Shown piece after piece: positions 1,176 to 25,447 of a DNA stretch of 27,264 bases (position 1 is its first letter; every line of letters begins with the position of its first letter). The stretch is from a virus: IMG/VR virus record IMGVR_UViG_3300042539_001642, positions 1-27,264 of that record, one strand, 5' to 3'. The translations under genes were made by a program, and so were the position numbers. The notes under the pieces were generated by a model, which did no database searches, was not told where the DNA came from, and saw only the letters and a program-made list of their open reading frames with translations.

Positions 1176-1463
1176 ATGAAACACTTTATTGAAAAAAACT
1201 TTATTGTTATTATAGCAGTATTAACTCTTCTAACTTTTTTAAAAAGTTGCGGAGATGGTAGAGAATTATCAAAAATAAGAAAAGAAATAGAAACAATTAA
1301 AGATTCGACTTATACAAAAGAAGAACTTAATGTTCGATTAAAAATTGAAGGATTGAAATCCGAAAAAAGGATGATTCAATCCACGGATAGAAAAATTTTA
1401 GATGTAAATCGTCAAACACAAATAGATGAAGAAATAAATAGATTAGAAAACAGTATTAAATGA
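1176..1463 (+). CDS. Small membrane-anchored coiled-coil protein, possible lipoprotein
   Basis: 95 residues. A hydrophobic segment at about 8-23 (FIVIIAVLTLLTFLKSC) is followed by SCGDG, which resembles a Bacteroidota lipobox-plus-CG motif. The Lys at -2 of the cysteine is unusual, so it may be a plain N-terminal anchor instead. The rest is a charged heptad-like helix (EIETIKDS..., GLKSEKRMIQ, EEINRLENSIK). This layout resembles phage spanin subunits, and a cell-wall-amidase-like gene lies nearby, but nothing in the sequence proves a lysis role. It overlaps the next gene by four bases (ATGA), so the two are probably co-translated. The start has a typical A-rich leader and no Shine-Dalgarno. 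Confidence 0.6.
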   Translation: MKHFIEKNFIVIIAVLTLLTFLKSCGDGRELSKIRKEIETIKDSTYTKEELNVRLKIEGLKSEKRMIQSTDRKILDVNRQTQIDEEINRLENSIK

Positions 1464-2524
1464 ATAATTGGTTTAAAAAAAATTATAAAACAGTAATAAT
1501 ATTAGCGTTTCTTATTCCAATTATAACCGTTGCAATTGTTTCAATTTCTCACGTCACAAAATGGTACGGAATATCTAACCCATTAACTTGGGCGATTTAT
1601 TTATCAATAGGAATTGAAATTGCAGCGTTGTCTGCACTCGCAGCGATTTCTGCAAATATGGGGAAAAAAGTTTATTTCCCATTTGGAATTGTAACATTAG
1701 TTCAATTCATAGGTAATGTTTATTTTGCCTATTCATACATTGACATACAAAGTCCCGCTTTTATTTCTTGGGTCGAACTTTTTTCTCCTTTATTAGAGTT
1801 AATTGGTGTTGAATCTAACGATTATGTTGGACACAAAAGATTTTTAGCATTTTTTGCTGGTGGTATGTTACCAATAATATCTCTGTCTTTTTTACACATG
1901 TTAGTTAAATTTGTACAAGAAGAAAGAGAAAATGAACATAATAGTCTTTTAATAAATGCACCAATCGACAATGGGTCCGTTGTAGAAGAAACACTTGTAG
2001 TGGAGGAACCCGTTGTAGAAGAGACACCAGTAATTGAAGAAACACTTGTAGTGGAGGAACCTATAGTTGAACCTGTTGTAGAAGAAGTACCTGTAGTCGA
2101 ACCAGTTGTAGAGGAATCACCTGTAGTGGAGGAACCTGTTGTAGAAGAGACACCAGTAATTGAAGAAACACCTGTAGTGGAGGAACCCATATTTGAACCC
2201 GTTGTAGAAGAAGTACCTGTAGTTGAAGAACCTGTTGTAGAAGAGACACCAGTAATTGAAGAAACACCTGTAGTGGAGGAACCCATATTTGAACCCGTTG
2301 TAGAAGAAGTACCTGTTGTAGAAGAGACACCAGTAATTGAAGAAACACCTGTGGTGGAAGAACCTATAGTCGAACCAGTTGTAGAAGAGGCACCAGTAAT
2401 TGAAGAAACACTTGTGGTAGAAGAACCTATAGTCGAACCATTTGTAGAGGAAGTACCTGTGGTGGAGGAACCCGTTGTAGAAGAAATTCCCATTGAAAAT
2501 AATGAGGAAGAAAAAAAAAACTAG
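1460..2524 (+). CDS. Four-helix membrane protein with long Val/Glu/Pro repeat tail
   Basis: The zero-frame product has 354 residues. Four hydrophobic segments are visible at about 11-31, 43-64, 72-92 and 128-148. They are followed by a charged stretch and then ~170 residues of VVEEP / VIEETP / IFEPVVEE repeats. Such Pro/acid repeats form extended spacers, as in TonB-type periplasm-spanning proteins, but there is no TonB C-terminal domain. The zero frame stops just after a run of ten A. The -1 frame continues open for 53 codons, so the true product is probably longer (see the frameshift entry). It sits between the anchored coiled-coil gene and the amidase-like gene, which fits an envelope or lysis-related job, but function is unknown. 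Confidence 0.75.
   Translation: MNNWFKKNYKTVIILAFLIPIITVAIVSISHVTKWYGISNPLTWAIYLSIGIEIAALSALAAISANMGKKVYFPFGIVTLVQFIGNVYFAYSYIDIQSPAFISWVELFSPLLELIGVESNDYVGHKRFLAFFAGGMLPIISLSFLHMLVKFVQEERENEHNSLLINAPIDNGSVVEETLVVEEPVVEETPVIEETLVVEEPIVEPVVEEVPVVEPVVEESPVVEEPVVEETPVIEETPVVEEPIFEPVVEEVPVVEEPVVEETPVIEETPVVEEPIFEPVVEEVPVVEETPVIEETPVVEEPIVEPVVEEAPVIEETLVVEEPIVEPFVEEVPVVEEPVVEEIPIENNEEEKKN
1979..2487 (+). repeat. Tandem repeat encoding VVEEP/VVEETP units; 96-bp higher-order copies
   Basis: The DNA is built from short units reading gttgtagaagaa-like and gtagtggaggaa-like words. A 96-bp block is repeated almost perfectly in tandem (2135-2230, then from 2231), with a further shortened copy from about 2312 (offset 81). 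All copies keep the reading frame, so copy number could change by recombination without breaking the gene. The repeat keeps the opposite strand open over about 670 bases, an artefact of the unit composition. Confidence 0.85.
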
Positions 2525-10897: not shown

Positions 10898-11632
10898 TTA
10901 CATTGTAAAATCATCTTTACCTAATCTTGATTTAGCGCCAAGTTGGTTAATAAACCATCCTTTATATTGACCATATACTCCTGAGAAGTGACATGGTCCT
11001 AAGACACCAATCATTTTTTCAAAAATGTATCTATCACAATCTTTTGTTTGTGGTGATGGATACCATATATTATTATCAACAAACGCACTTCTACTAAATG
11101 AAACCTGAGAGCCATCAACCCTACACGATGGAGAAATTGGTTCCCTATAATGATTTAATGATGATGTATTAAAACTTTTATCTGAGGGTTCTTCTACAGA
11201 TTCACGATAAGTCTCAACCTCAGGATTAAAAAATTTAACATGAGAGTAACACCATGATTTATCTGAATTTTCATTGTAAAACTTATTTAAGTTGGTTAGA
11301 TAATCAGGAAACAACGCATCATCATCACACATAACAATAACGTAATTCGCGTCACTTTCTTGAATTGCTCGATTCATATATGCACCATGAATACTACCAC
11401 CTTGTCTTTTTTTATCTTCTGCGGTGTTGTTAATATAATAAAAAGTAAATTTATCAATGATTGAGGAGCAAACCTCTCTAACCACCTCTTCACCTTTATT
11501 AATTGACCCATCATCAATGAACCTAACTTCAAAATTTTTATAATTCAATTCCATAATCGAATTAAGGGCGTTTAAAACAATTTTTGGTCGTTCATAATAA
11601 ACCAATATGATTAAAAATTTATTCGTTTTCAT
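10898..11632 (-). CDS. Family 2 glycosyltransferase
   Basis: 244 residues from ATG 11632; a longer start at 11680 would overlap the SDR gene by 62 bases and lacks family support. It has a GT-A fold: an N-terminal strand KFLIILVYYERP, a nucleotide-sugar-binding acidic pair VRFIDDGS (residues 40-41) and the metal-binding triad MCDDDALFPDYL (103-105). It transfers an unknown sugar. It is the last gene of the seven-gene minus-strand operon and overlaps the SDR gene by 14 bases. Confidence 0.85.
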   Translation of the reverse strand: MKTNKFLIILVYYERPKIVLNALNSIMELNYKNFEVRFIDDGSINKGEEVVREVCSSIIDKFTFYYINNTAEDKKRQGGSIHGAYMNRAIQESDANYVIVMCDDDALFPDYLTNLNKFYNENSDKSWCYSHVKFFNPEVETYRESVEEPSDKSFNTSSLNHYREPISPSCRVDGSQVSFSRSAFVDNNIWYPSPQTKDCDRYIFEKMIGVLGPCHFSGVYGQYKGWFINQLGAKSRLGKDDFTM

Positions 11633-12263
11633 ATGCACCAGTAATAGATAAATTAGTTCCGTTAATATATTCGGTTTCAATGATTGTCGACACTAAGTTT
11701 GACATTTCACTAACCATACCAAGTCTTTTAAGAGGTATCATTTTTAAAACATTTGATAATACTTCTTGAGGTACTTTTTCCGTTAAGCCACCATCAAAAT
11801 ACCCTAATTGAATTGAGTTTGATGTGATTCCGTATTTAGAATTTTCTAACGAATATGTTCTGATTAGATTATCACAAAAAGACTTAGATGCCGAATATAT
11901 TCCTGTACCTCTAATTGGGTTTTTAGATAAGACCGATGAAATGTAAATCACCCTACCAAATTTTTTTTCTCTCATTTTTTCAGTAGAATGTCTTAATACA
12001 TTTAAGAAACCAAAAATATTTACACCAACCTGTTCCGTAACCATTTCATTTGTTTGTTTATGAATTAACCCATCGTAGTTTTTGACCGATAGGTAAATAA
12101 TAATATCAAAATCAATAGACTCCAAAAATTTTTTAACCCTAACTTCATCAGTCACATCGCATGTTTTCGAACCGATAGATATACATTCATATCTTTCACT
12201 AAGATATTCTTGCAATTTAGAACCTAAACCTCCGGTTCCACCAAATAATAAGATTTTTTTCAT
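11619..12263 (-). CDS. SDR-family NAD(P)-dependent oxidoreductase
   Basis: 214 residues. The Rossmann nucleotide-binding motif GGTGGLG is at residues 8-14. The catalytic Ser is in VIYISS (about 109-110), Tyr123 and Lys127 sit in YSASK, and the tail is NGTNLSITGAY as in FabG-like SDRs. It is somewhat short for the family (usually ~245). In this setting it probably reduces or oxidises a sugar or acyl group for glycan synthesis. It abuts the dioxygenase gene with no gap, the ATG following its stop directly. Substrate unknown. Confidence 0.9.
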   Translation of the reverse strand: MKKILLFGGTGGLGSKLQEYLSERYECISIGSKTCDVTDEVRVKKFLESIDFDIIIYLSVKNYDGLIHKQTNEMVTEQVGVNIFGFLNVLRHSTEKMREKKFGRVIYISSVLSKNPIRGTGIYSASKSFCDNLIRTYSLENSKYGITSNSIQLGYFDGGLTEKVPQEVLSNVLKMIPLKRLGMVSEMSNLVSTIIETEYINGTNLSITGAYENE

Positions 12264-13145
12264 TTATTTATTGTGTTTATATTCTCTTATGTTTTTTTCT
12301 GTAATGTTCTTTTTTGAAAATTCACCTTTCCATGCTTCTGAAAACATTGGTGAATAGTACACATCACAATCGTCATAGTAATAATGAGTTACCTGTGAGT
12401 AACGAGTACTATTCGGGTCTCTAATAACGTCGCCACCATGAATTAAATTTGATACCCATAAAAGTGCTTGACCTTTTTTACAAATTAAAGGTTTAACTTC
12501 CAATTTTTGAACATCAACTAATTGTCTAATAAATTCTTCATATTCTGAATAACTATCGAATTGTTTACCATACTCAGGAACTTTAATTTTTAGGTCGTAA
12601 AAATCAAATATTGGTAGCTTATGTGAACCCGGTACATAGAGTAATGAACCGTTTTGGTCCGTCATATCTTCTAATGCAACCCAAACCGCCGTTAACCATC
12701 TATGTGGCATGGAATCAAAATGTATTAAATCACTATGTAGTGGTTGATTTGAACCATAATTAAAGGTTATTGTTTGAAATGGGTACGGTTCTCTCTTATA
12801 AAATAACCTAAGAATATCCATAACAATAGGATTTAAAGAAAGAGATTGTAACATTTCACTTTCTTTCCAACCTTCAAATATTCTTTTACCTTTAGAATAA
12901 TGATACCCATCCGCTTGGGTAACCACTGTATCTTGTTCATTTAATCTATCAATTTCTTTTTTAAAGTTATCTATTTGTTCATCGGTCAAACCCAAATCTA
13001 AAACGATATAACCATCTCGGTTAAGTTTATACGCTAATTCTTTTTGTTCTTCGGTTAAATCCTGATGTTTAATTAATTCATTAAAAAATGGGGATTCAAA
13101 CCACGGCCAATTCATCGCCTCGGAATCTTGTTTATAATTTTTCAT
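12264..13145 (-). CDS. Phytanoyl-CoA dioxygenase-like Fe(II)/2-oxoglutarate oxygenase
   Basis: 293 residues, a typical PhyH length. The iron-binding triad is visible: His137 and Asp139 in QPLHSDLIHF, and the distal His236 in LIHGGDV. Arg248 (DPNSTRYSQVTHYY) is placed to bind 2-oxoglutarate. Such enzymes hydroxylate or rearrange small molecules and occur in sugar and secondary-metabolite clusters. Here it likely hydroxylates a sugar or its acyl decoration. It lies between a glycosyltransferase and the SDR gene in one operon; the next stop is two bases away. Substrate cannot be deduced. Confidence 0.88.
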   Translation of the reverse strand: MKNYKQDSEAMNWPWFESPFFNELIKHQDLTEEQKELAYKLNRDGYIVLDLGLTDEQIDNFKKEIDRLNEQDTVVTQADGYHYSKGKRIFEGWKESEMLQSLSLNPIVMDILRLFYKREPYPFQTITFNYGSNQPLHSDLIHFDSMPHRWLTAVWVALEDMTDQNGSLLYVPGSHKLPIFDFYDLKIKVPEYGKQFDSYSEYEEFIRQLVDVQKLEVKPLICKKGQALLWVSNLIHGGDVIRDPNSTRYSQVTHYYYDDCDVYYSPMFSEAWKGEFSKKNITEKNIREYKHNK

Positions 13146-13147
13146 TT

Positions 13148-13906
13148 TTAAAAACCTACTTTATAAATTATTTCTAATTCTTCGTTATTTTTTACATAAT
13201 TATTTTTTTGACCTGCATGAGATTGGAAATTTAAACAATATGGAGAATATGACGGGTGATTTTTAATTTCCATACCTAACCTAACAAATCTATTAGTAAA
13301 ATCAATTTCATATTTTTCAAGTTTATCATATCCATCATTTAAACTTGATGTCATATTTAAAAAATTTTTAATTTCATCAATCGACCTTGATTGTAAAAAT
13401 TTATTAGTTGAAGTTAATCCACAACCACCACCAGAGTGTTTCGGGTGAAATGAAATTGACATTGGAGCCAATGAAACAAATCCTAAATTATCATCACTAT
13501 CTAAAAAGTCAATGAAATCTTTCATATATTCGTTCTTATAAACTAAAACATCGTCTTCACAAAAAAACCAATAATCATAGTCGTTTTTGTATTTTAAAAA
13601 CATATCATAATAACCTCCAAAAGAACCTCCTTTATTGTCTCTACTCTCCACAATAATTTTACCGTTTTTTGTTTCAACATTGTGATATGAATTTAATATA
13701 TTGTTACTTTCAATATTGTTGCAATTATTGTTAACAATAATAACATCTGTCGGTACACCATTTTCAATATTGAGTTCGTTTTCAATCATTAGTTTTAAAA
13801 ACTCAATTACGTTTTGTGGTGTATTGTAAACCGACCTTCTGTTACCAAAATATGTGCAAATAATCTTTGCACATGTTTTATTTTTGTTTGATGAAATTTG
13901 GGTCAT
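13148..13906 (-). CDS. Glycosyltransferase-like protein (GT-A fold)
   Basis: 252 residues. An N-terminal strand AKIICTYFGNRR begins the fold, and a typical acidic site WFFCEDDVLVY lies at residues 117-119, as in family 2-type glycosyltransferases. A Gly/His-rich segment, FHPKHSGGGCGLTST, is unusual and may form the acceptor or metal site. The nucleotide-sugar pair expected near residue 40-60 is replaced by VIIVNNNCN, so this is a divergent member. It overlaps the acyltransferase end by 29 bases. Confidence 0.72.
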   Translation of the reverse strand: MTQISSNKNKTCAKIICTYFGNRRSVYNTPQNVIEFLKLMIENELNIENGVPTDVIIVNNNCNNIESNNILNSYHNVETKNGKIIVESRDNKGGSFGGYYDMFLKYKNDYDYWFFCEDDVLVYKNEYMKDFIDFLDSDDNLGFVSLAPMSISFHPKHSGGGCGLTSTNKFLQSRSIDEIKNFLNMTSSLNDGYDKLEKYEIDFTNRFVRLGMEIKNHPSYSPYCLNFQSHAGQKNNYVKNNEELEIIYKVGF

Positions 13907-14444
13907 TTGATAATTTAATTACGTTTTCCTTATTTCTGGATTTATGAAATTTTAAAGGATTACCAATATACACCGACCATTCGTTTAATTCCGATTTTGA
14001 ATAAACAAAACTACTGGCACCAATTGTACAACCTTCAGGGAAAGTTACACCTGGTAAAACAACAACGTCTGAGGCGATTCCCGAATAATTTTCAAATTTG
14101 ATATCACCCCTAAAGATTTTATTGTTACCCCAAAATTCATTTACGGGTCCAAAATCACCACTGTAATCTTCGGATGCGCAAAATAACTTTGAACCATAAC
14201 CAATAAAATTCCATTTTCCTAGTGTTATTTTATGTTGTGTACCACCACCTAAAACAGCATGTGAACATATCTGAGCATATTCCCCAACTTCTAATGCGGT
14301 GGTTATTAAACAAAATGGGTCTATTCTTACATTATCACCCAAATAAACATTTTTTGGATTTGTGAATATTACATTGTGACCAATAAAGACATTACTACCA
14401 CAATAACCCAAATCCTTTTTTATTTCTTCATTCCATCCAACCAT
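13878..14444 (-). CDS. Left-handed beta-helix (hexapeptide) acyltransferase
   Basis: 188 residues with repeated hexapeptide-like turns: GSNVFIGHNVIF, VYLGDNVRID, EVGEYAQICSHAV, then FIGYGSKLFC and CTIGASSFVYS. The C-terminal IGNPLKFHKSR is typical of sugar O- or N-acetyltransferases of the WbbJ/VatD-like class. Next to a DegT aminotransferase it most simply acylates the new amino group of a nucleotide sugar, as in VioA/VioB-type pairs. No acceptor specificity can be read. Only 12 bases separate it from the aminotransferase. Confidence 0.87.
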   Translation of the reverse strand: MVGWNEEIKKDLGYCGSNVFIGHNVIFTNPKNVYLGDNVRIDPFCLITTALEVGEYAQICSHAVLGGGTQHKITLGKWNFIGYGSKLFCASEDYSGDFGPVNEFWGNNKIFRGDIKFENYSGIASDVVVLPGVTFPEGCTIGASSFVYSKSELNEWSVYIGNPLKFHKSRNKENVIKLSNDPNFIKQK

Positions 14445-14456
14445 ATCATTACTATT

Positions 14457-15605
14457 TTACCATCCCTTTTTAATACAATCCACAATATATTCTCTTTGTT
14501 CTTCGGTAACCCACCAACCAACAGGTATAGAAACCACTTTACCGATTATTTTATCTAACGTTGGTAATGGAGAATTATAATTTTGCACACAACTATGTTT
14601 ATCATTTCTTTCATGTACTTGAGATACGACTATATTACATTCTTTCATCCATCTATAAAATCCTTCCCTATTTTCAACTAACATACTATAAATCCAAAAT
14701 GCAGATTCGTGACCCTCATGTCTTGTTAATGTTGTTAACCCATTAATATTATTTAAATTTTCATCATAAAATTTCGCGTTAGATTGGTGGGTGTCAACTA
14801 TATTTTTTACATGTTTTAGATTTTCAATACCAACCGTTGCACAAACATCATTCATATGGAATTTAAACCCCCATTCTTGAATATCGGCTTCACACCTAAA
14901 ATCTTTTCTATTAGAGTTTCTATCAATACCATACCATCTTAATAACTTCGCTCTTTCATAAAGTTCTTTGTGAGGTAGTAATAATAAACCACCATCAATT
15001 GAGGTTATGTGTTTAATTGCTTGCAAACTATACATCACCATATTTCCATGGTTACCCAAACGTTTTCCTTTATACTTTGAACCGAATGAATGTGCCCCAT
15101 CTTCAATAACCGCCGGTTTAAAACCATATAATTCAAAACATCTATTTTGAATTTCTTTGATTTTATCCAAATCATTTGGATACCCACCCCAATGGACTAA
15201 CATGATTATTTTAGTTTTGGGTGATAATTTTCTCATTAAATCATCTAAATCTATATTTAAAGTAGATGGGTCAATATCTACCCATTTTATTTTCAAATTA
15301 TTAGCTAAAGTTGGAAAATTTGAAGCAGTACAGGTTAACGATGTTGATAAAACTTCATCACCATTTTCAAGACCCGGCCATTTATCTGTTTTGTTTTTTA
15401 ATAAGTGTAAGGCCAAATGTAGACCACTGGTACCTGAGTTTAACGTTACCACGTAATCTCTATCAAAGTAATTTTTTAAGTCGTTTTCAAATTTTTCAAC
15501 TTTTTCACCTTGACCTATATACCCACTATTTAGTACTTTTGTAACTTCAGATGAAGCGGTTTCTGACATAAACACTTTAAATAGTTGAATCATTTCTTTT
15601 TGCAT
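14457..15605 (-). CDS. DegT/DnrJ/EryC1/StrS-family sugar aminotransferase
   Basis: 382 residues, the family's usual length. It is a PLP enzyme that puts an amino group on a keto-nucleotide sugar, usually with glutamate as donor. Visible features are the cofactor-binding NSGTSGLHLAL (57-67), EDGAHSFGS (Asp169 stacks with the PLP pyridine nitrogen) and the Schiff-base Lys198 in SLQAIKHITSIDGG. The late segment GWWVTEEQ replaces the usual PxxP end. It is followed by the acyltransferase in the same operon. Because no dehydratase or nucleotidyltransferase is in the window, its substrate must come from the host or from genes elsewhere in the phage. Confidence 0.93.
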   Translation of the reverse strand: MQKEMIQLFKVFMSETASSEVTKVLNSGYIGQGEKVEKFENDLKNYFDRDYVVTLNSGTSGLHLALHLLKNKTDKWPGLENGDEVLSTSLTCTASNFPTLANNLKIKWVDIDPSTLNIDLDDLMRKLSPKTKIIMLVHWGGYPNDLDKIKEIQNRCFELYGFKPAVIEDGAHSFGSKYKGKRLGNHGNMVMYSLQAIKHITSIDGGLLLLPHKELYERAKLLRWYGIDRNSNRKDFRCEADIQEWGFKFHMNDVCATVGIENLKHVKNIVDTHQSNAKFYDENLNNINGLTTLTRHEGHESAFWIYSMLVENREGFYRWMKECNIVVSQVHERNDKHSCVQNYNSPLPTLDKIIGKVVSIPVGWWVTEEQREYIVDCIKKGW

Positions 15606-15610
15606 ATTTT

Positions 15611-17119
15611 TTAATTTAAAATAACAATATTTTTTATTTTTTTCAAGTTTTGTTTTATAAAAGGTTCTAACCTTTCTTTGAAATCACTTGACATCTTTTT
15701 ATTTTTTTCTTCATGGTCATTTCTTGATTGTGATTCGTAGTGGTATGCCACTGATTTACCAGATATAAAATTTTTATAACCAAAAATTTCACATTTTAAA
15801 TTTAATTCAACATCTTCAAAACATTCAATATAATTTTCATTAAACATGTCACATTTTTCAAATACTTTTTTATGAATCATCATAAAACCTCCAGTATTAC
15901 CAATTACGTTTTTTGTGTTTGTTGTATAATTGTAATAAGAATTAAAACCATGGTGAGTTATCCTAACATTATTTATTTTCTCTAATCCAATTAAAACACC
16001 ATCATGTTGAACAGTATTGTCTCCGAAATGAAGTCTGGCACCAACAGTACCAACATTTTTATTTTCTTTAAAAATCAACAACATGTTATAAATCACGTTG
16101 TTTAATAATTTAATATCGTTATTACAAAATAAAAGGAATTCATAATTATTTGAAATGTAATTTTTCACAACGTCATTATTAATCTTTGCAAAATTGTAGT
16201 AATCATATTCAATTAGTTTTATATCACCTAATGTTAAAATATTTTCTTTTATCCATTTTTTTTCATCATCAGTTGAACCTGTGTCAGCAATGAATATGGT
16301 AAATAGGGTAGAATTACAATGGTCATAAAATGATTTTATACAATCGTGCAACATCTCAACTTTTCCTTTGGTTGGGATAATTACAGCAACTTTTCCAATG
16401 TTTTTTAATGGTTTTTCTTTGACATTTTCAACATAAATTTTTTCAGGTTTCAAATCTAATGGTAGTTTATTTCCCCATTTTTGTAAAAATCTTTCTTTAG
16501 ATTCAAAAAATTCTTGGTTTGGTTGACCAACTGATTGGTGAGTAATTTCAAATGAAGATGTAACACCAATTTTAACACCGTCTAAATAATTCGGTAAACA
16601 AAACGAATGGTCATAAAAATGAAATTTACCAATTGTTTCATCAAAAGAATGTTTGATTTTTGTTTTATTAAATGATATAAATAAACCATCAATTGTAACA
16701 ACGGGAATTAATTCGGGCAATTTAGTTGAATATCGACTTAACCATTTTTTTTGACCTTCTGGTTGATGGTAAACTTGTCCAACCATTGTTTGTTGCATAC
16801 GTTCCCAATAAACACCGGATTCAGGAAAATAACAAGAGCCAGCTTTACCTATAATACCATAATCACTGTTTGATTCAAAATCTTTAAGTATTTTTACACC
16901 CCACCCTGTTTCTAGTTTAATATCATTGTGGACACATACAATGATTTCATATTTAGACTCACTAATTCCTCTGTTATAAATTTCTGCAAGTGAATATTGG
17001 TTAAAATTTTCGTATTCAAGAATTTCAAAATTTTTAATACCAATAGTTTTTGTTAAATGGTCTTTAAAAGTTTTATTATAGTTCGTGTCTTTGTGTGTTG
17101 AGTAGATTATTGTTATCAT
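15611..17119 (-). CDS. Two-domain family 2 glycosyltransferase
   Basis: 502 residues made of two GT-A domains. The N-terminal one (about 1-230) starts MITIIYSTHKD and has YNRGISESKYEIIVCVHNDI (HND at 64-66). The C-terminal one (about 240-500) starts VAVIIPTKGKVEMLHDCIKS, with IADTGSTDD and FLLFCNNDIKLL, then NTGGFMMIHKKVF and FEDVELNLKC near the end, as in rhamnosyltransferase-like enzymes. It may add two different sugars or polymerise a disaccharide. It is the first gene of the sugar operon, with a perfect TATATTTG box upstream. Confidence 0.88.
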   Translation of the reverse strand: MITIIYSTHKDTNYNKTFKDHLTKTIGIKNFEILEYENFNQYSLAEIYNRGISESKYEIIVCVHNDIKLETGWGVKILKDFESNSDYGIIGKAGSCYFPESGVYWERMQQTMVGQVYHQPEGQKKWLSRYSTKLPELIPVVTIDGLFISFNKTKIKHSFDETIGKFHFYDHSFCLPNYLDGVKIGVTSSFEITHQSVGQPNQEFFESKERFLQKWGNKLPLDLKPEKIYVENVKEKPLKNIGKVAVIIPTKGKVEMLHDCIKSFYDHCNSTLFTIFIADTGSTDDEKKWIKENILTLGDIKLIEYDYYNFAKINNDVVKNYISNNYEFLLFCNNDIKLLNNVIYNMLLIFKENKNVGTVGARLHFGDNTVQHDGVLIGLEKINNVRITHHGFNSYYNYTTNTKNVIGNTGGFMMIHKKVFEKCDMFNENYIECFEDVELNLKCEIFGYKNFISGKSVAYHYESQSRNDHEEKNKKMSSDFKERLEPFIKQNLKKIKNIVILN

Positions 17120-17152: not shown

Positions 17153-17353
17153 TTAAAATTTAGAACCTTTGGTTACCAACTCATTGTGGTTATCAATTTC
17201 CTTTTTAAATTCTTCTTTATTGATGTATAAATCGAGGGCCCTATTTACCAATTTTTGGAAATTTATTCTAGCACCCATACTTTTTGCTTTAAATCTATCA
17301 TAAATGTCGTCAATCACAATGACGCTAGTTAATTTTGTTTGATATTTTGGCAT
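17153..17353 (-). CDS. Ribbon-helix-helix-like small DNA-binding protein
   Basis: 66 residues. A short strand TSVIVIDDIYDRFK is followed by two helices, RINFQKLVNRALDLYI and KEEFKKEIDNHNELV, the layout of a ribbon-helix-helix repressor (MetJ/Arc class). There is no toxin partner next to it. Its position just upstream of the sugar operon on the same strand makes it a candidate regulator of that operon or of itself. Just before its ATG, on the minus strand, lie two overlapping TATAAATA words within a 20-base AT run, which resemble T4-type late promoters but could also be chance in such AT-rich DNA. Confidence 0.65.
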   Translation of the reverse strand: MPKYQTKLTSVIVIDDIYDRFKAKSMGARINFQKLVNRALDLYINKEEFKKEIDNHNELVTKGSKF

Positions 17354-17394
17354 GATTATATATTTATATATTTATATATATATTTTTAATAATT

Positions 17395-19113: not shown

Positions 19114-19330
19114 AATAGAAACTAAAAAATATTTATACGATTTTTTTATTCTTAAAAAGAAACATTTTTGGTTTTTAATACCGACCCCAATTCTTTATTA
19201 CAATAAAGAAACGTTTTTTGAAACCGGTGTATATACACCATCATTTGGGTTTACATTTAGGTTTTTAAATATTATGATTGGAATACAAATTCAAAAAAAC
19301 TTATATATTAAAAATGAAAACAAAAATTGA
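19106..19330 (+). CDS. Unknown aromatic-rich protein, 74 residues
   Basis: Not recognised. It is rich in Phe, Tyr and Ile (KHFWFLIPTPILYYNKETFF, then PSFGFTFRFLNIMIGIQI), possibly membrane-associated through the C-terminal hydrophobic stretch. It overlaps the glutamine synthetase start by 17 bases, so it is probably translated together with that gene. Confidence 0.5.
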   Translation: MGKIETKKYLYDFFILKKKHFWFLIPTPILYYNKETFFETGVYTPSFGFTFRFLNIMIGIQIQKNLYIKNENKN

Positions 19331-20429
19331 ATACGTATGGTTAGATGGATATATATCTGAACCTAATTTAAGAAGTAAAATAAAAATAATCGATTACGCC
19401 AATCCATCAAGAATAACATTGGGGGATATACCTAATTGGGGGTTTGACGGCAGTTCAACAAAACAAGCTGAAGGTAATTTTTCTGACTGTTATCTTAAAC
19501 CAATCAAATTATATCGTTCGGATAATAATGAATCAGACACGATTTACGTATTATGTGAAGTTTTGGATGGAGACAATAATACACATGACTCAAATACTCG
19601 AGCATTAATTGGAGATGAAGATATTGATTTTTGGGTGGGTTTCGAACAGGAGTACTTTATCAGAAAAGGTCATAATCAAAACATTTTAGGATTTAACGGT
19701 ACAATCATTGACCCACAAGGAAAATACTATTGTGGTGTTGGTGGACAAATGCATGGAAGACATCTAAGTGATGAACATTTGGATATGTGTCTAAAATATG
19801 GAATCAATATTGAAGGAACAAACGCAGAGGTTGCTATTGGTCAATGGGAATACCAAATATTTGGTAAGGGAAAAATATCAACATCAGATGACTTATGGAT
19901 GTCTCGATATTTTCTTTATAAATTGGCCGAAAAATATGGATACCAAATTGATTTACATCCAAAACCTATTCAAACTGGTGAGTGGAATGGTTCAGGTTTA
20001 CATACAAATTTTTCAAATAAAAAAATGAGAGAAGTTGGCGGAGAAGAATATTTTAACTCAATTTTTAAATCTTTTTCAAGTAGAACAAAAGAACACATTG
20101 ATGCATATGGTTCCGATAATCATTTAAGGTTAACCGGAAAGTATGAAACACAATCGATTGACAGGTTTAGTTGGGGGTTTTCTGATAGGGGAGCGTCTAT
20201 TAGGGTACCTAAAATGGTATCTGAAAATTGGACGGGGTATTTGGAAGACAGGAGACCGGCTTCACATGCCGACCCATATAGAATTGTTAAAGTTATTTCA
20301 GATACGTTAAAATTTGCGGATGAATTATATAAAACGTTATATATGATGTATTACGAATCAGATGTTATTAAAAATGATTATGGTACATTAACAAAAGATG
20401 AACTTCTTAATGATTTCAAACAAGACTAA
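19314..20429 (+). CDS. glnA: Type II glutamine synthetase (GSII)
   Basis: 371 residues, the compact GSII type found in eukaryotes and Bacteroidota. It makes glutamine from glutamate, ammonia and ATP. All main active-site blocks are present: WGFDGSSTKQAEG (42-54), metal-binding GFEQEYF (Glu111, Glu113), NAEVAIGQWEYQIF, the ammonia/ATP-loop GEWNGSGLHTNFS, RLTGKYET, DRGASIRVP and the late LEDRRPASHADPY. This argues for an active enzyme. I start at ATG 19314; an upstream TTG would add 12 residues inside the previous gene. TAATG couples it to the next gene. It may keep glutamine available for nucleotide and amino-sugar synthesis during infection. It is unusual for a phage and probably host-derived, although the codon use looks as AT-rich as its neighbours. 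Confidence 0.95.
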   Translation: MKTKIEYVWLDGYISEPNLRSKIKIIDYANPSRITLGDIPNWGFDGSSTKQAEGNFSDCYLKPIKLYRSDNNESDTIYVLCEVLDGDNNTHDSNTRALIGDEDIDFWVGFEQEYFIRKGHNQNILGFNGTIIDPQGKYYCGVGGQMHGRHLSDEHLDMCLKYGINIEGTNAEVAIGQWEYQIFGKGKISTSDDLWMSRYFLYKLAEKYGYQIDLHPKPIQTGEWNGSGLHTNFSNKKMREVGGEEYFNSIFKSFSSRTKEHIDAYGSDNHLRLTGKYETQSIDRFSWGFSDRGASIRVPKMVSENWTGYLEDRRPASHADPYRIVKVISDTLKFADELYKTLYMMYYESDVIKNDYGTLTKDELLNDFKQD

Positions 20430-23257: not shown

Positions 23258-23544
23258 ATAAAGAAATTGACATAACACTAGTGGATAAAATAGTCGCTGA
23301 TACAAGGAGAGTTTGTGAGATACGATTTGATTGTATGGTGACAATGCATGATGTTGCATATAAGAAATACAAGGGAATGTGGGGACAAGAAAAACAATCC
23401 AAAACACCTCAATGGTTTAAAGCCAATCATATTCTAACATTAGAAACGGTTAAACATGCCGACCCATACGAGTTGGGAATGAGAATTAAAGAAATGTTTC
23501 ATCAATTAGAAAAAACAATAGAAAGTTATGAACAACCTAGATAA
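23254..23544 (+). CDS. Unknown protein, 96 residues
   Basis: Not recognised. It is mixed and helical ([20 protein letters not shown], then [20 protein letters not shown]). Its last codons, TIESYEQPR, come from the same DNA word (aacaatagaaagttatg) that ends paralogue A, and this word also provides the start context of thymidylate synthase, which it overlaps by 17 bases. Confidence 0.55.
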
Positions 23545-23848
23545 ACAATACCAAGCACTCCTACAAGACATACTTGATAATGGAGTAGAAAAGAAAGACA
23601 GAACAGGTACGGGGACTCTATCAGTATTCGGTAGACAAATCCGTCATTCTATGAAAGATGGTTTCCCACTTTTAACTACCAAAAAAATGTATTTCAAAGG
23701 AATTGTAACTGAATTGTTATGGTTCTTGCGAGGTGATACATCAATAGAATATCTTTTAGAAAACGATTGCAATATCTGGACAGGAGACGCTTATCAATCT
23801 TACTTGAAAGAATGTGAAAAATTAAAAAAAGATGATGAAAAAATGTAA
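23528..23848 (+). CDS. thyA: Thymidylate synthase, N-terminal piece
   Basis: 106 residues. They cover the first third of ThyA, which methylates dUMP to dTMP with methylene-tetrahydrofolate. It contains the phosphate-binding [12 protein letters not shown] (the Arg21 equivalent), the folate-side [20 protein letters not shown] (the Glu58 equivalent) and NIWTGDAY (the Trp80 equivalent). The coding sequence then ends KLKKDDEKM at a TAA, where an intact Bacteroidota enzyme would continue. A homing endonuclease gene follows after 38 bases, and the rest of the enzyme is encoded at 24596-25447. No catalytic residue is lost, so the two pieces could assemble. Confidence 0.92.
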
Positions 23849-23886
23849 TTTTTATATCCATCACCATATTTATAATAAAAAAGAAT

Positions 23887-24609
23887 ATGGAAACAAAATA
23901 CTATTTGTATATTAAAACAAGTCCAATTGGTTTAAAATATCTTGGTAAAACAACTAAAAATCCTTTCACCTACTTAGGTAGTGGTAAAATTTGGAAACAA
24001 CATATTAAAAAACATAATTTAACTATTAACGATATTAAAACAGAAGTTGTGTTCGAAACAAATGATGTTAATAAATTAATTGAAAAAGGTTTGGAATTAA
24101 GTGCGTTATACAATGTTGTTAAATCAAAAGAGTGGGCTAATTTAAGAGAAGAGGCTGGTGATGGTGGTGATACTAGTAATTTTATTAATTTTACAAACCC
24201 AGTTTTTCACAATTCAGAAAGAAGTAAACATCTAAATGAGTGGTTAAAAAATGTGAGTGAAGATGAAATGAAACAAATTTTAAGAGAAAGGATTGCAAAA
24301 GTTGATTTTAATGAGAGGGATAAAAAAACAAAAGAAAATACAGATTGGGAAAGTTGGAGGGAATCTATTAAAAATAGAAAAACTGACTATACCAAATTCT
24401 TAGGTAAGGTTCACGAAAAAAATAAAAAACCAGTGCTACAATTTGATTTAGATGATAATTTTATACAAGAATTTGATAGTGCATCGTCAGCGGCTAAATC
24501 GTTAGGTTGTAGTAATGGTGGTAATATAACAAATTGTTGTAAAAGTAGATGTAAATCTACTTTAGGATTTAAATGGAAATATAAAAACATAGAAAATGAA
24601 AGCAAATAA
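23887..24609 (+). CDS. GIY-YIG homing endonuclease with NUMOD1 DNA-binding domain
   Basis: 240 residues. The GIY-YIG nuclease domain is at the N-terminus: YYLYIKTSPIGLKYLGKTT (the GIY and YIG strands as YLYIK and KYLGK), then GSGKIWKQHIKKHN. The acidic residue expected for metal binding is probably Glu66 or Glu70. The middle is a charged linker. The C-terminal ~50 residues (VLQFDLDDNFIQEFDSASSA, then AKSLGCSNGGNITNCC) fit a NUMOD1/IENR1 DNA-binding repeat. It lies inside the thymidylate synthase gene, 38 bases after the first piece and overlapping the second by 14. A TATTTATAAT-containing leader precedes it. Such enzymes cut copies of the gene that lack the insertion. Confidence 0.9.
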   Translation: METKYYLYIKTSPIGLKYLGKTTKNPFTYLGSGKIWKQHIKKHNLTINDIKTEVVFETNDVNKLIEKGLELSALYNVVKSKEWANLREEAGDGGDTSNFINFTNPVFHNSERSKHLNEWLKNVSEDEMKQILRERIAKVDFNERDKKTKENTDWESWRESIKNRKTDYTKFLGKVHEKNKKPVLQFDLDDNFIQEFDSASSAAKSLGCSNGGNITNCCKSRCKSTLGFKWKYKNIENESK

Positions 24610-25447
24610 AAATGATTTACACGAAAGTGGTCGTCCACTCTCACAAGAAGAATTCATCGACAAAATCAAAACAGATGATGAGTTTGCTAAGAAGTGGGGT
24701 GAATTAGGACCAATTTATGGTAAACAGTGGAGAGAATGGAAAACCGAAGTTGCTATTCCAACAACATTAAAAATTGATGATGGTGATGATATTGAACCCT
24801 TATATGTAAAAGGAACACAGTATATTGACCAAATCCAAAACCTAATCAACGACCTTAAAACAAACCCAGACTCAAGACGATTAATGGTTAATGCTTGGAA
24901 TGTAGGTGAATTAGACCAAATGGTTCTTCCACCTTGTCATTATGGATTTCAAGTTTATACAAGAGAGTTGAGTGATGAGGAAAGATTAGATTGGATGAAA
25001 CAAAATAGGTCTAAAACGGTTTTACCAATGAGAGACCCTAGTGTTGAGTTTTCTATGGATGAGTTTTTTAGACCTTATGGTGTACCTAAACGAGCAATCT
25101 CTTTAATGTTCAACATGAGAAGTACAGATGTCCCATTGGGATTGCCTTTTAATTTAGCAAGTTATGGGTTACTATTAGAAATCATCGCAAAGGGGGTTAA
25201 TATGGTGCCTGATGAACTTATAGGTAATTTAGGAGATACACACATCTACTTAAATCAAATTGAAGGTATTAAAGAACAATTGACAAGAGAACCATATCAA
25301 TTACCCACTTTAAAACATATGAAAACAGATGAGTTCTTTAAATTTTTGAGTGAAGATTTAAGTTTGATTACACATTTGGATAGTAGTGATTTTACCTTAG
25401 AAAACTACCAATCACACCCATCAATTAAATTACCTTTATCAAATTAA
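24596..25447 (+). CDS. thyA: Thymidylate synthase, C-terminal piece with its own start
   Basis: 283 residues. An in-frame TAG at 24590-24592 shows translation cannot run in from upstream; ATG 24596, inside the endonuclease end, is the start. It carries the rest of the enzyme: LGPIYGKQWREW, the Arg pair in DSRRLMVNAWN (94-95), the catalytic Cys114 in LPPCHYGFQ, then FNMRSTDVPLGLPFNLASYG and GDTHIYLNQ. The segment between FQVYTREL and PKRAISL, and the EEFIDKIKTDDEFAKKWG lead-in, are the inserts usual in Bacteroidota ThyA, here somewhat enlarged. All active-site groups of this half are intact. Confidence 0.93.
   Translation: MKANKNDLHESGRPLSQEEFIDKIKTDDEFAKKWGELGPIYGKQWREWKTEVAIPTTLKIDDGDDIEPLYVKGTQYIDQIQNLINDLKTNPDSRRLMVNAWNVGELDQMVLPPCHYGFQVYTRELSDEERLDWMKQNRSKTVLPMRDPSVEFSMDEFFRPYGVPKRAISLMFNMRSTDVPLGLPFNLASYGLLLEIIAKGVNMVPDELIGNLGDTHIYLNQIEGIKEQLTREPYQLPTLKHMKTDEFFKFLSEDLSLITHLDSSDFTLENYQSHPSIKLPLSN

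Follow-up and report, generated by a model that had tools for sequence, protein, structure and literature searches.

The operon and its genes

The virus record IMGVR_UViG_3300042539_001642 of IMG/VR, a 27,264-bp fragment of a phage genome referred to here in its entirety as the window, carries on its minus strand a compact run of seven open reading frames (ORFs), from 17119 to 10898, predicted to act in the modification and transfer of sugars. An original prediction had placed a seven-gene surface-glycan operon on the minus strand at 10898-17119, and all seven ORFs were found at that span. The successive gaps or overlaps are +5, +12, -29, +2, 0 and about -14 nt, and because the spacing lies only between -29 and +12 nt the seven genes are regarded as one operon. 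Pfam families were found for six of the seven, which in order of transcription are:

15611..17119, minus strand: two-domain glycosyltransferase (GT), 502 amino acids (aa); Pfam Glyco_tranf_2_5 4.3e-27 and Glycos_transf_2 5.1e-12
14457..15605, minus strand: DegT-family pyridoxal phosphate (PLP) nucleotide-sugar aminotransferase, AtmS13/CalS13-like, 382 aa; Pfam DegT 1.9e-71
13878..14444, minus strand: left-handed beta-helix (hexapeptide) acyltransferase, 188 aa; Pfam Hexapep 8.1e-15
13148..13906, minus strand: GT-A fold glycosyltransferase without a Pfam family, here called GTx, 252 aa; AlphaFold2 and Foldseek, invariant EDD motif
12264..13145, minus strand: PhyH-type Fe(II)/2-oxoglutarate oxygenase, 293 aa; Pfam PhyH 6.9e-23
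11619..12263, minus strand: FabG-like short-chain dehydrogenase/reductase (SDR), 214 aa, YxxxK intact; Pfam adh_short 5.2e-20
10898..11632, minus strand: GT2 glycosyltransferase, 244 aa; Pfam Glycos_transf_2 3.9e-13

Several GTs and enzymes that modify sugar nucleotides share a single transcription unit of the phage, and the window thus holds a phage-encoded glycan cluster. On balance, we consider the product of this cassette to be an N-acylated 4-amino-4-deoxy sugar that becomes part of a glycan.

The prediction of four GT domains in three genes depended on GTx, which has no match in Pfam, NCBIfam or PHROGs and is confirmed by its fold: the AlphaFold2 model has a pLDDT of 91.2, the top Foldseek matches are all GT-A glycosyltransferases, and the EDD motif is invariant in 19 relatives. 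The two-domain GT has relatives of 66-69% identity that adjoin DegT in loci L022-L027. One detail has been revised: for the last GT2 gene, ATG 11632 is a likelier start than TTG 11680, the one first proposed, judging from relatives that begin at the equivalent Met region.

Predicted enzymes of amination, acylation and hydroxylation

Against the PDB, the DegT protein matches 4xau/4zwv at 2.5e-113 and CalS13 (4zas) at 1.3e-102, the next family following at 1e-36, with the PLP-lysine motif aligned. By full-length similarity, clearly above that to other DegT families, it is a member of the AtmS13/CalS13 subfamily, where 4xau/4zwv is the entry we take to be AtmS13. For AtmS13 the postulated reaction is the amination of a keto-deoxypentose at C4 (PMC10951976). 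In two more distant phage relatives a gmd-like gene adjoins DegT (TIGR01472 398 and 406 bits, cutoff 415), a neighbour that would fit a 4-amino-4,6-dideoxyhexose. A pseudaminic or legionaminic (nonulosonic) acid pathway was considered and rejected, PseC being the best NCBIfam match at 205 bits against a cutoff of 423.5 and NeuB being absent. This and the other searches for assembly machinery covered 22 phage records including the window, with contigs of 238-287 kb among them, and the bacterial positive controls matched. The cluster had also been thought to depend on nucleotide sugars of the host, which is supported in part. Of the PhyH-bearing relatives the largest, a 269-kb contig, agrees in having neither a PF16363 dehydratase nor a PF00483 nucleotidyltransferase, but other DegT relatives have the gmd-like gene, the window is itself a fragment, and Pfam tests for the two families across genomes were mixed between relatives.

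The best PDB matches of the acyltransferase are 3vbi-3vbp (2.6e-20 over residues 6-181; next 1e-6), deposited as galactoside O-acetyltransferase and presumably AntD of anthrose biosynthesis. A part for 3-hydroxy-3-methylbutyryl-CoA in the synthesis of anthrose is reported in PMC8141488, which cites Kubiak and Holden (2012). The SDR is FabG-like, matching NCBIfam reductase models below their cutoffs, and is 74-79% identical to SDRs that lie directly downstream of FabH in relatives. The operon oxygenase is a PhyH 2-oxoglutarate oxygenase by family, residues and fold: His137, Asp139, His236 and Arg248 (the HxD...H iron triad and the 2-oxoglutarate arginine) are invariant in the alignments, and the AlphaFold2 model (pLDDT 84) has a cupin fold for which Foldseek returns EctD and PHYH.

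Recurrence and exchange of modules among phages

Relatives of the PhyH gene occur in 22 viral loci of IMG/VR, and the viral PhyH proteins group as one long-branched clade (support 100/100). Wherever the loci are covered far enough the order is DegT - [methyltransferase] - hexapeptide - GTx - PhyH - [FabH] - SDR - GT2, with gains and losses. The original prediction called a 2-oxoglutarate oxygenase in such a set unusual; this holds for the named phage records of INPHARED, in which no PhyH relative was found, and the literature on PhyH in phage glycan clusters yielded nothing useful, but recurrence in 22 IMG/VR loci makes the oxygenase a trait of a lineage rather than a one-off.

Module content was compared among the best 80 of 216 DegT loci and counted over the 55 distinct loci that extend at least 6 kb past DegT on its downstream side. 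FabH, which scores above its NCBIfam cutoff and often lies between PhyH and the SDR, is carried by relatives L004-L016, L040, L070 and L126, and the SDR is present in all 14 PhyH loci and all 11 FabH loci. The acyltransferase is of two kinds, GNAT (PseH-like) alone in 37 loci and hexapeptide alone in 11, with both in one locus and neither in six; the two replace one another (Fisher p about 1e-6, for loci that are not independent). In L180 (11045-12172, plus strand) a GNAT acyltransferase is fused to a GTx-type glycosyltransferase in one ORF, and the acylation step is therefore tied to that glycosyltransferase. Ratios of nonsynonymous to synonymous substitution (dN/dS) point to strong purifying selection on PhyH (0.04-0.05) and FabH (0.025) and weaker selection on the GTs (0.18-0.26), a difference from which we infer that the sugar is conserved while linkages or acceptors change.

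Two further observations come from glycan clusters of viral contigs. Beside that of L004 (13655-16554, minus strand) are a DUF401-type permease and an ORF that by eye resembles a TonB-dependent outer-membrane receptor and has no Pfam match, and within that of L179 (5770-7137, plus strand) the translation reads as a HAD-type phosphatase fused to a nucleotidyltransferase-like domain.

Bacterial relatives and the phage origin of the cassette

No bacterial genome examined shows the gene order of the cassette. A scan of bacterial genome contigs gave two PhyH relatives of 35-40% identity, both stand-alone genes, and of 395 Bacteroidia genomes searched with a profile 49 had PhyH relatives. In 20 regions around bacterial PhyH genes, reaching about 8 kb to either side, there was no cassette-like DegT, hexapeptide transferase, FabH or GT2 at meaningful score. 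These stand-alone genes (20 of 20 loci), together with EctD being the closest fold to PhyH, favour the idea that PhyH and the SDR belong to a small-molecule pathway, for example to an osmolyte or antibiotic-like metabolite, and merely share the operon. We think this very unlikely, as the phage PhyH clade is always inside a DegT-GT cluster with the SDR and the genes are only 0-2 nt apart.

DegT relatives at E<=1e-80 were found in two of the 395 Bacteroidia genomes; a contig of a metagenome-assembled genome (L185) has a DegT relative at 50% without the phage-type cassette, and L186 is the one bacterial DegT cluster found. Most enzyme families of the cassette also occur in bacterial glycan loci, and this, with L186, is what speaks for recent capture of a host O-antigen segment, a prophage boundary or a chimera. 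The near-identical host chromosome locus named in the original prediction as grounds for such a view was looked for and did not appear in the bacterial searches. A separate 39.8-kb record (G001; 39,846 bp) matches window positions 1-24,840 at 99.96% identity (24,840 bp) and extends upstream into genes for SbcC/SbcD-like (T4 gp46/gp47-type) nuclease subunits, a primase, a RuvC-like resolvase and a head maturation protease. Because of this record and its phage genes the cassette is taken to be phage DNA and mis-assembly is unlikely. Phage genes lie on both sides of the cassette, similar flanking genes (an N6_N4 methylase and DUF192) precede the cluster in L097-L099, and the viral PhyH proteins form one long-branched clade while close DegT relatives are rare in Bacteroidia, so that capture, boundary or chimera has hardly any likelihood left.

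The phage is tailed and probably has an aquatic Bacteroidota host. The host is suggested by Flavobacterium phage immuto, by the nearest bacterial PhyH genes being in Bacteroidia, and by features like those of the moraphages, for which glutamine synthetase, core GTs and predicted Bacteroidota hosts have been described (PMC12619734). The window encodes a GlnII-like glutamine synthetase at 19278-20429 (plus strand; NF041605 325 bits, below the cutoff of 500), whose best named relatives, at 40-52% identity, belong to huge phages (634-735 kb) that are uncultured. Elsewhere in the window, the protein of 1460-2524 (plus strand) has a long acidic VEEPVVEETPVIEE repeat, and its DNA is likewise repetitive, with self-matches.

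Upstream of the operon lie two small ORFs without a family match:

17153..17353, minus strand: small ORF, 66 aa
17425..17613, minus strand: small ORF, 62 aa

Both may share the operon transcript, the 66-aa ORF possibly as its first gene. Just upstream of the latter, at 17361-17376 on the minus strand, are two tandem TATAAATA octamers like T4 late promoters; the octamer occurs 11 times in the window against 6.1 expected, a weak excess, and the pair is only a lead. Sigma-70-like promoter sites are not commoner than in shuffled sequence, no regulatory RNA was matched in Rfam, and a role in anti-phage defence was set aside after PADLOC gave no match.

Proposed pathway

From the gene content, folds, conservation, linkage and selection described above we infer the following substrates, order of reactions and acceptor. 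The DegT enzyme would aminate C4 of a nucleoside diphosphate (NDP)-4-keto sugar provided by the host or by another part of the phage. The FabG-like SDR, with a host ketoacyl synthase (in relatives the phage FabH), would supply a short 3-hydroxyacyl thioester, from which the hexapeptide acyltransferase would transfer the 3-hydroxyacyl group to the 4-amino group. The PhyH oxygenase would introduce another hydroxyl, and its constant association with the SDR makes the acyl part the likeliest site. Finally, the four GT-A domains would assemble the sugar on a cytoplasmic acceptor, a phage structural protein being thought more likely than host lipopolysaccharide (LPS). The N-(hydroxy)acyl 4-amino sugar at the centre of this scheme follows from the solved structures to which the aminotransferase and acyltransferase are closest, the association of FabH with the SDR and the exchange of hexapeptide for GNAT enzymes, and it agrees with the acylated, possibly hydroxylated amino sugar and its transfer that had been predicted at the outset.

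Several points weigh against this scheme. The substrate postulated for AtmS13 is a deoxypentose, whereas gmd beside DegT in relatives points to a hexose; a sugar might be the substrate of the SDR after all; and the window has neither a ketoacyl synthase nor a dehydratase. The substrate of the oxygenase is not fixed, as PHYH (an acyl-CoA enzyme, phytanoyl-CoA 2-hydroxylase) leads by sequence and EctD by fold. The loci are related phages, so the p values overstate the exchange, and most phage records are fragments, which makes gene absences in them weak.

The same sugar chemistry could instead be aimed at LPS, capsule or glycoprotein precursors of the host, changing receptors and blocking superinfection. 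The nearest functional precedent for acyl switching is indeed the O-antigen of Flavobacterium (PMC6519341), and Flavobacterium is also the host of immuto, a related phage in culture that has a DegT cluster with many GTs. No initiating phosphoglycosyltransferase (PF02397, Bac_transf), Wzx flippase (PF01943, Polysacc_synt) or above-cutoff polymerase/ligase (PF04932, Wzy_C) was found in the 22 phage records, and a Wzx/Wzy-dependent O-antigen cluster was rejected with all three missing; these absences count against a host-surface target, although a phage could still borrow the machinery of its host. Integrase or lysogeny genes were not noticed, with no search aimed at them. Such a target is possible and yet, in our estimation, unlikely, and we lean weakly towards the virion as the site of the glycan.

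Some phage proteins are rich in Thr, Ser and Pro (TPTxTPS) and mucin-like, reaching about 1,800 aa (L102:147-4198, L205:3165-4991, L206:16811-19999, L207:1-9888 and L187:9217-10209). The protein of L102 is in the same phage and those of L205-L207 are in the 269-kb PhyH-bearing relative; those scanned had no Pfam match. As candidate glycan acceptors they are a lead, not evidence. More tentatively, and with considerable doubt, we suggest that in a lineage of large Bacteroidota phages a conserved transaminase core is paired with acylation modules that can be swapped, each built on a hexapeptide or a GNAT transferase and including FabH, SDR and PhyH in some cases but not in others. The phages would thereby change the hydroxyacyl group on a glycan of the virion, one that coats mucin-like Thr/Ser-Pro-rich adhesins which these genomes also encode (L102:147-4198; L205-L207).

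DNA is a frequent target of phage GTs (discussed in PMC12619734), and the window holds a thymidylate synthase and two DNA methylases, so that the GTs and sugar enzymes might decorate modified bases in the manner of glycosylated hydroxymethyl pyrimidines. This DNA hypermodification is highly improbable. The oxygenase is PhyH and not TET/JBP (PF12851 had no match in the 22 records, in a search without a positive control), and both methylases are of families whose target is adenine N6 or cytosine N4. The thymidylate synthase has a GLPFN motif with what is presumably the Asn of dUMP enzymes. Its gene (23528-25447, plus strand) is split in two by a GIY-YIG-like ORF (23887-24609), which suggests an intron or the insertion of a homing endonuclease.

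Comparison with known systems

The aminotransferase shares with AtmS13 and CalS13 both its DegT subfamily and, by prediction, the amination at C4 of a 4-keto NDP sugar, those two coming from antibiotic pathways of actinobacteria. The best solved relative of the acyltransferase (3VBI-3VBP), assumed here to be the AntD that places a hydroxyacyl group on a 4-amino-4,6-dideoxy sugar, is likewise a hexapeptide N-acyltransferase and serves the D-anthrose pathway, which makes a sugar of the Bacillus exosporium, has a different acyl source and to our knowledge is without PhyH. Among cultured Bacteroidota phages, immuto (NC_055915) has DegT at 55% identity, several GTs, an acyltransferase-like gene and an epimerase, but its gene set is different, with no PhyH, FabH or SDR relative detected. 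The moraphages are large aquatic Bacteroidota phages with glutamine synthetase and core GTs, as found around the cassette, but an aminotransferase, acyl module and dioxygenase are unmentioned in the text of PMC12619734.

The R-group module of the Flavobacterium psychrophilum O-antigen (wfpC-wfpG with PglE/PglF-type genes; PMC6519341) resembles the cassette in its 4-amino sugar, PglD-like hexapeptide acyltransferase and ketoacyl reductase, and the combination of transaminase, PglD-like acyltransferase and ketoacyl reductase by which it is recognised is present in the window. The ketoacyl synthase of that module has no counterpart in the window and is represented by FabH in the phage relatives. 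Unlike the cassette, the module lies on a bacterial chromosome and has a carrier protein of its own as well as genes for O-antigen assembly, and the text of PMC6519341 has no dioxygenase. In F. psychrophilum alternative acyl modules alter LPS antigenicity and define serotypes (PMC6519341), and the phages, in swapping the enzymes that set the acyl group and keeping the amination step, parallel the O-serotype switching of their likely hosts. Glycan clusters borne by phages are known, usually listed as 'glycosyltransferases' of no stated purpose; what is new here is a swappable acyl module with a 2-oxoglutarate oxygenase, a ketoacyl reductase and, in relatives, a ketoacyl synthase. Comparison of these relatives gives a testable product, an N-(hydroxy)acylated 4-amino sugar, and the cassette thereby offers a direct route to asking what purpose phage-made glycans serve.

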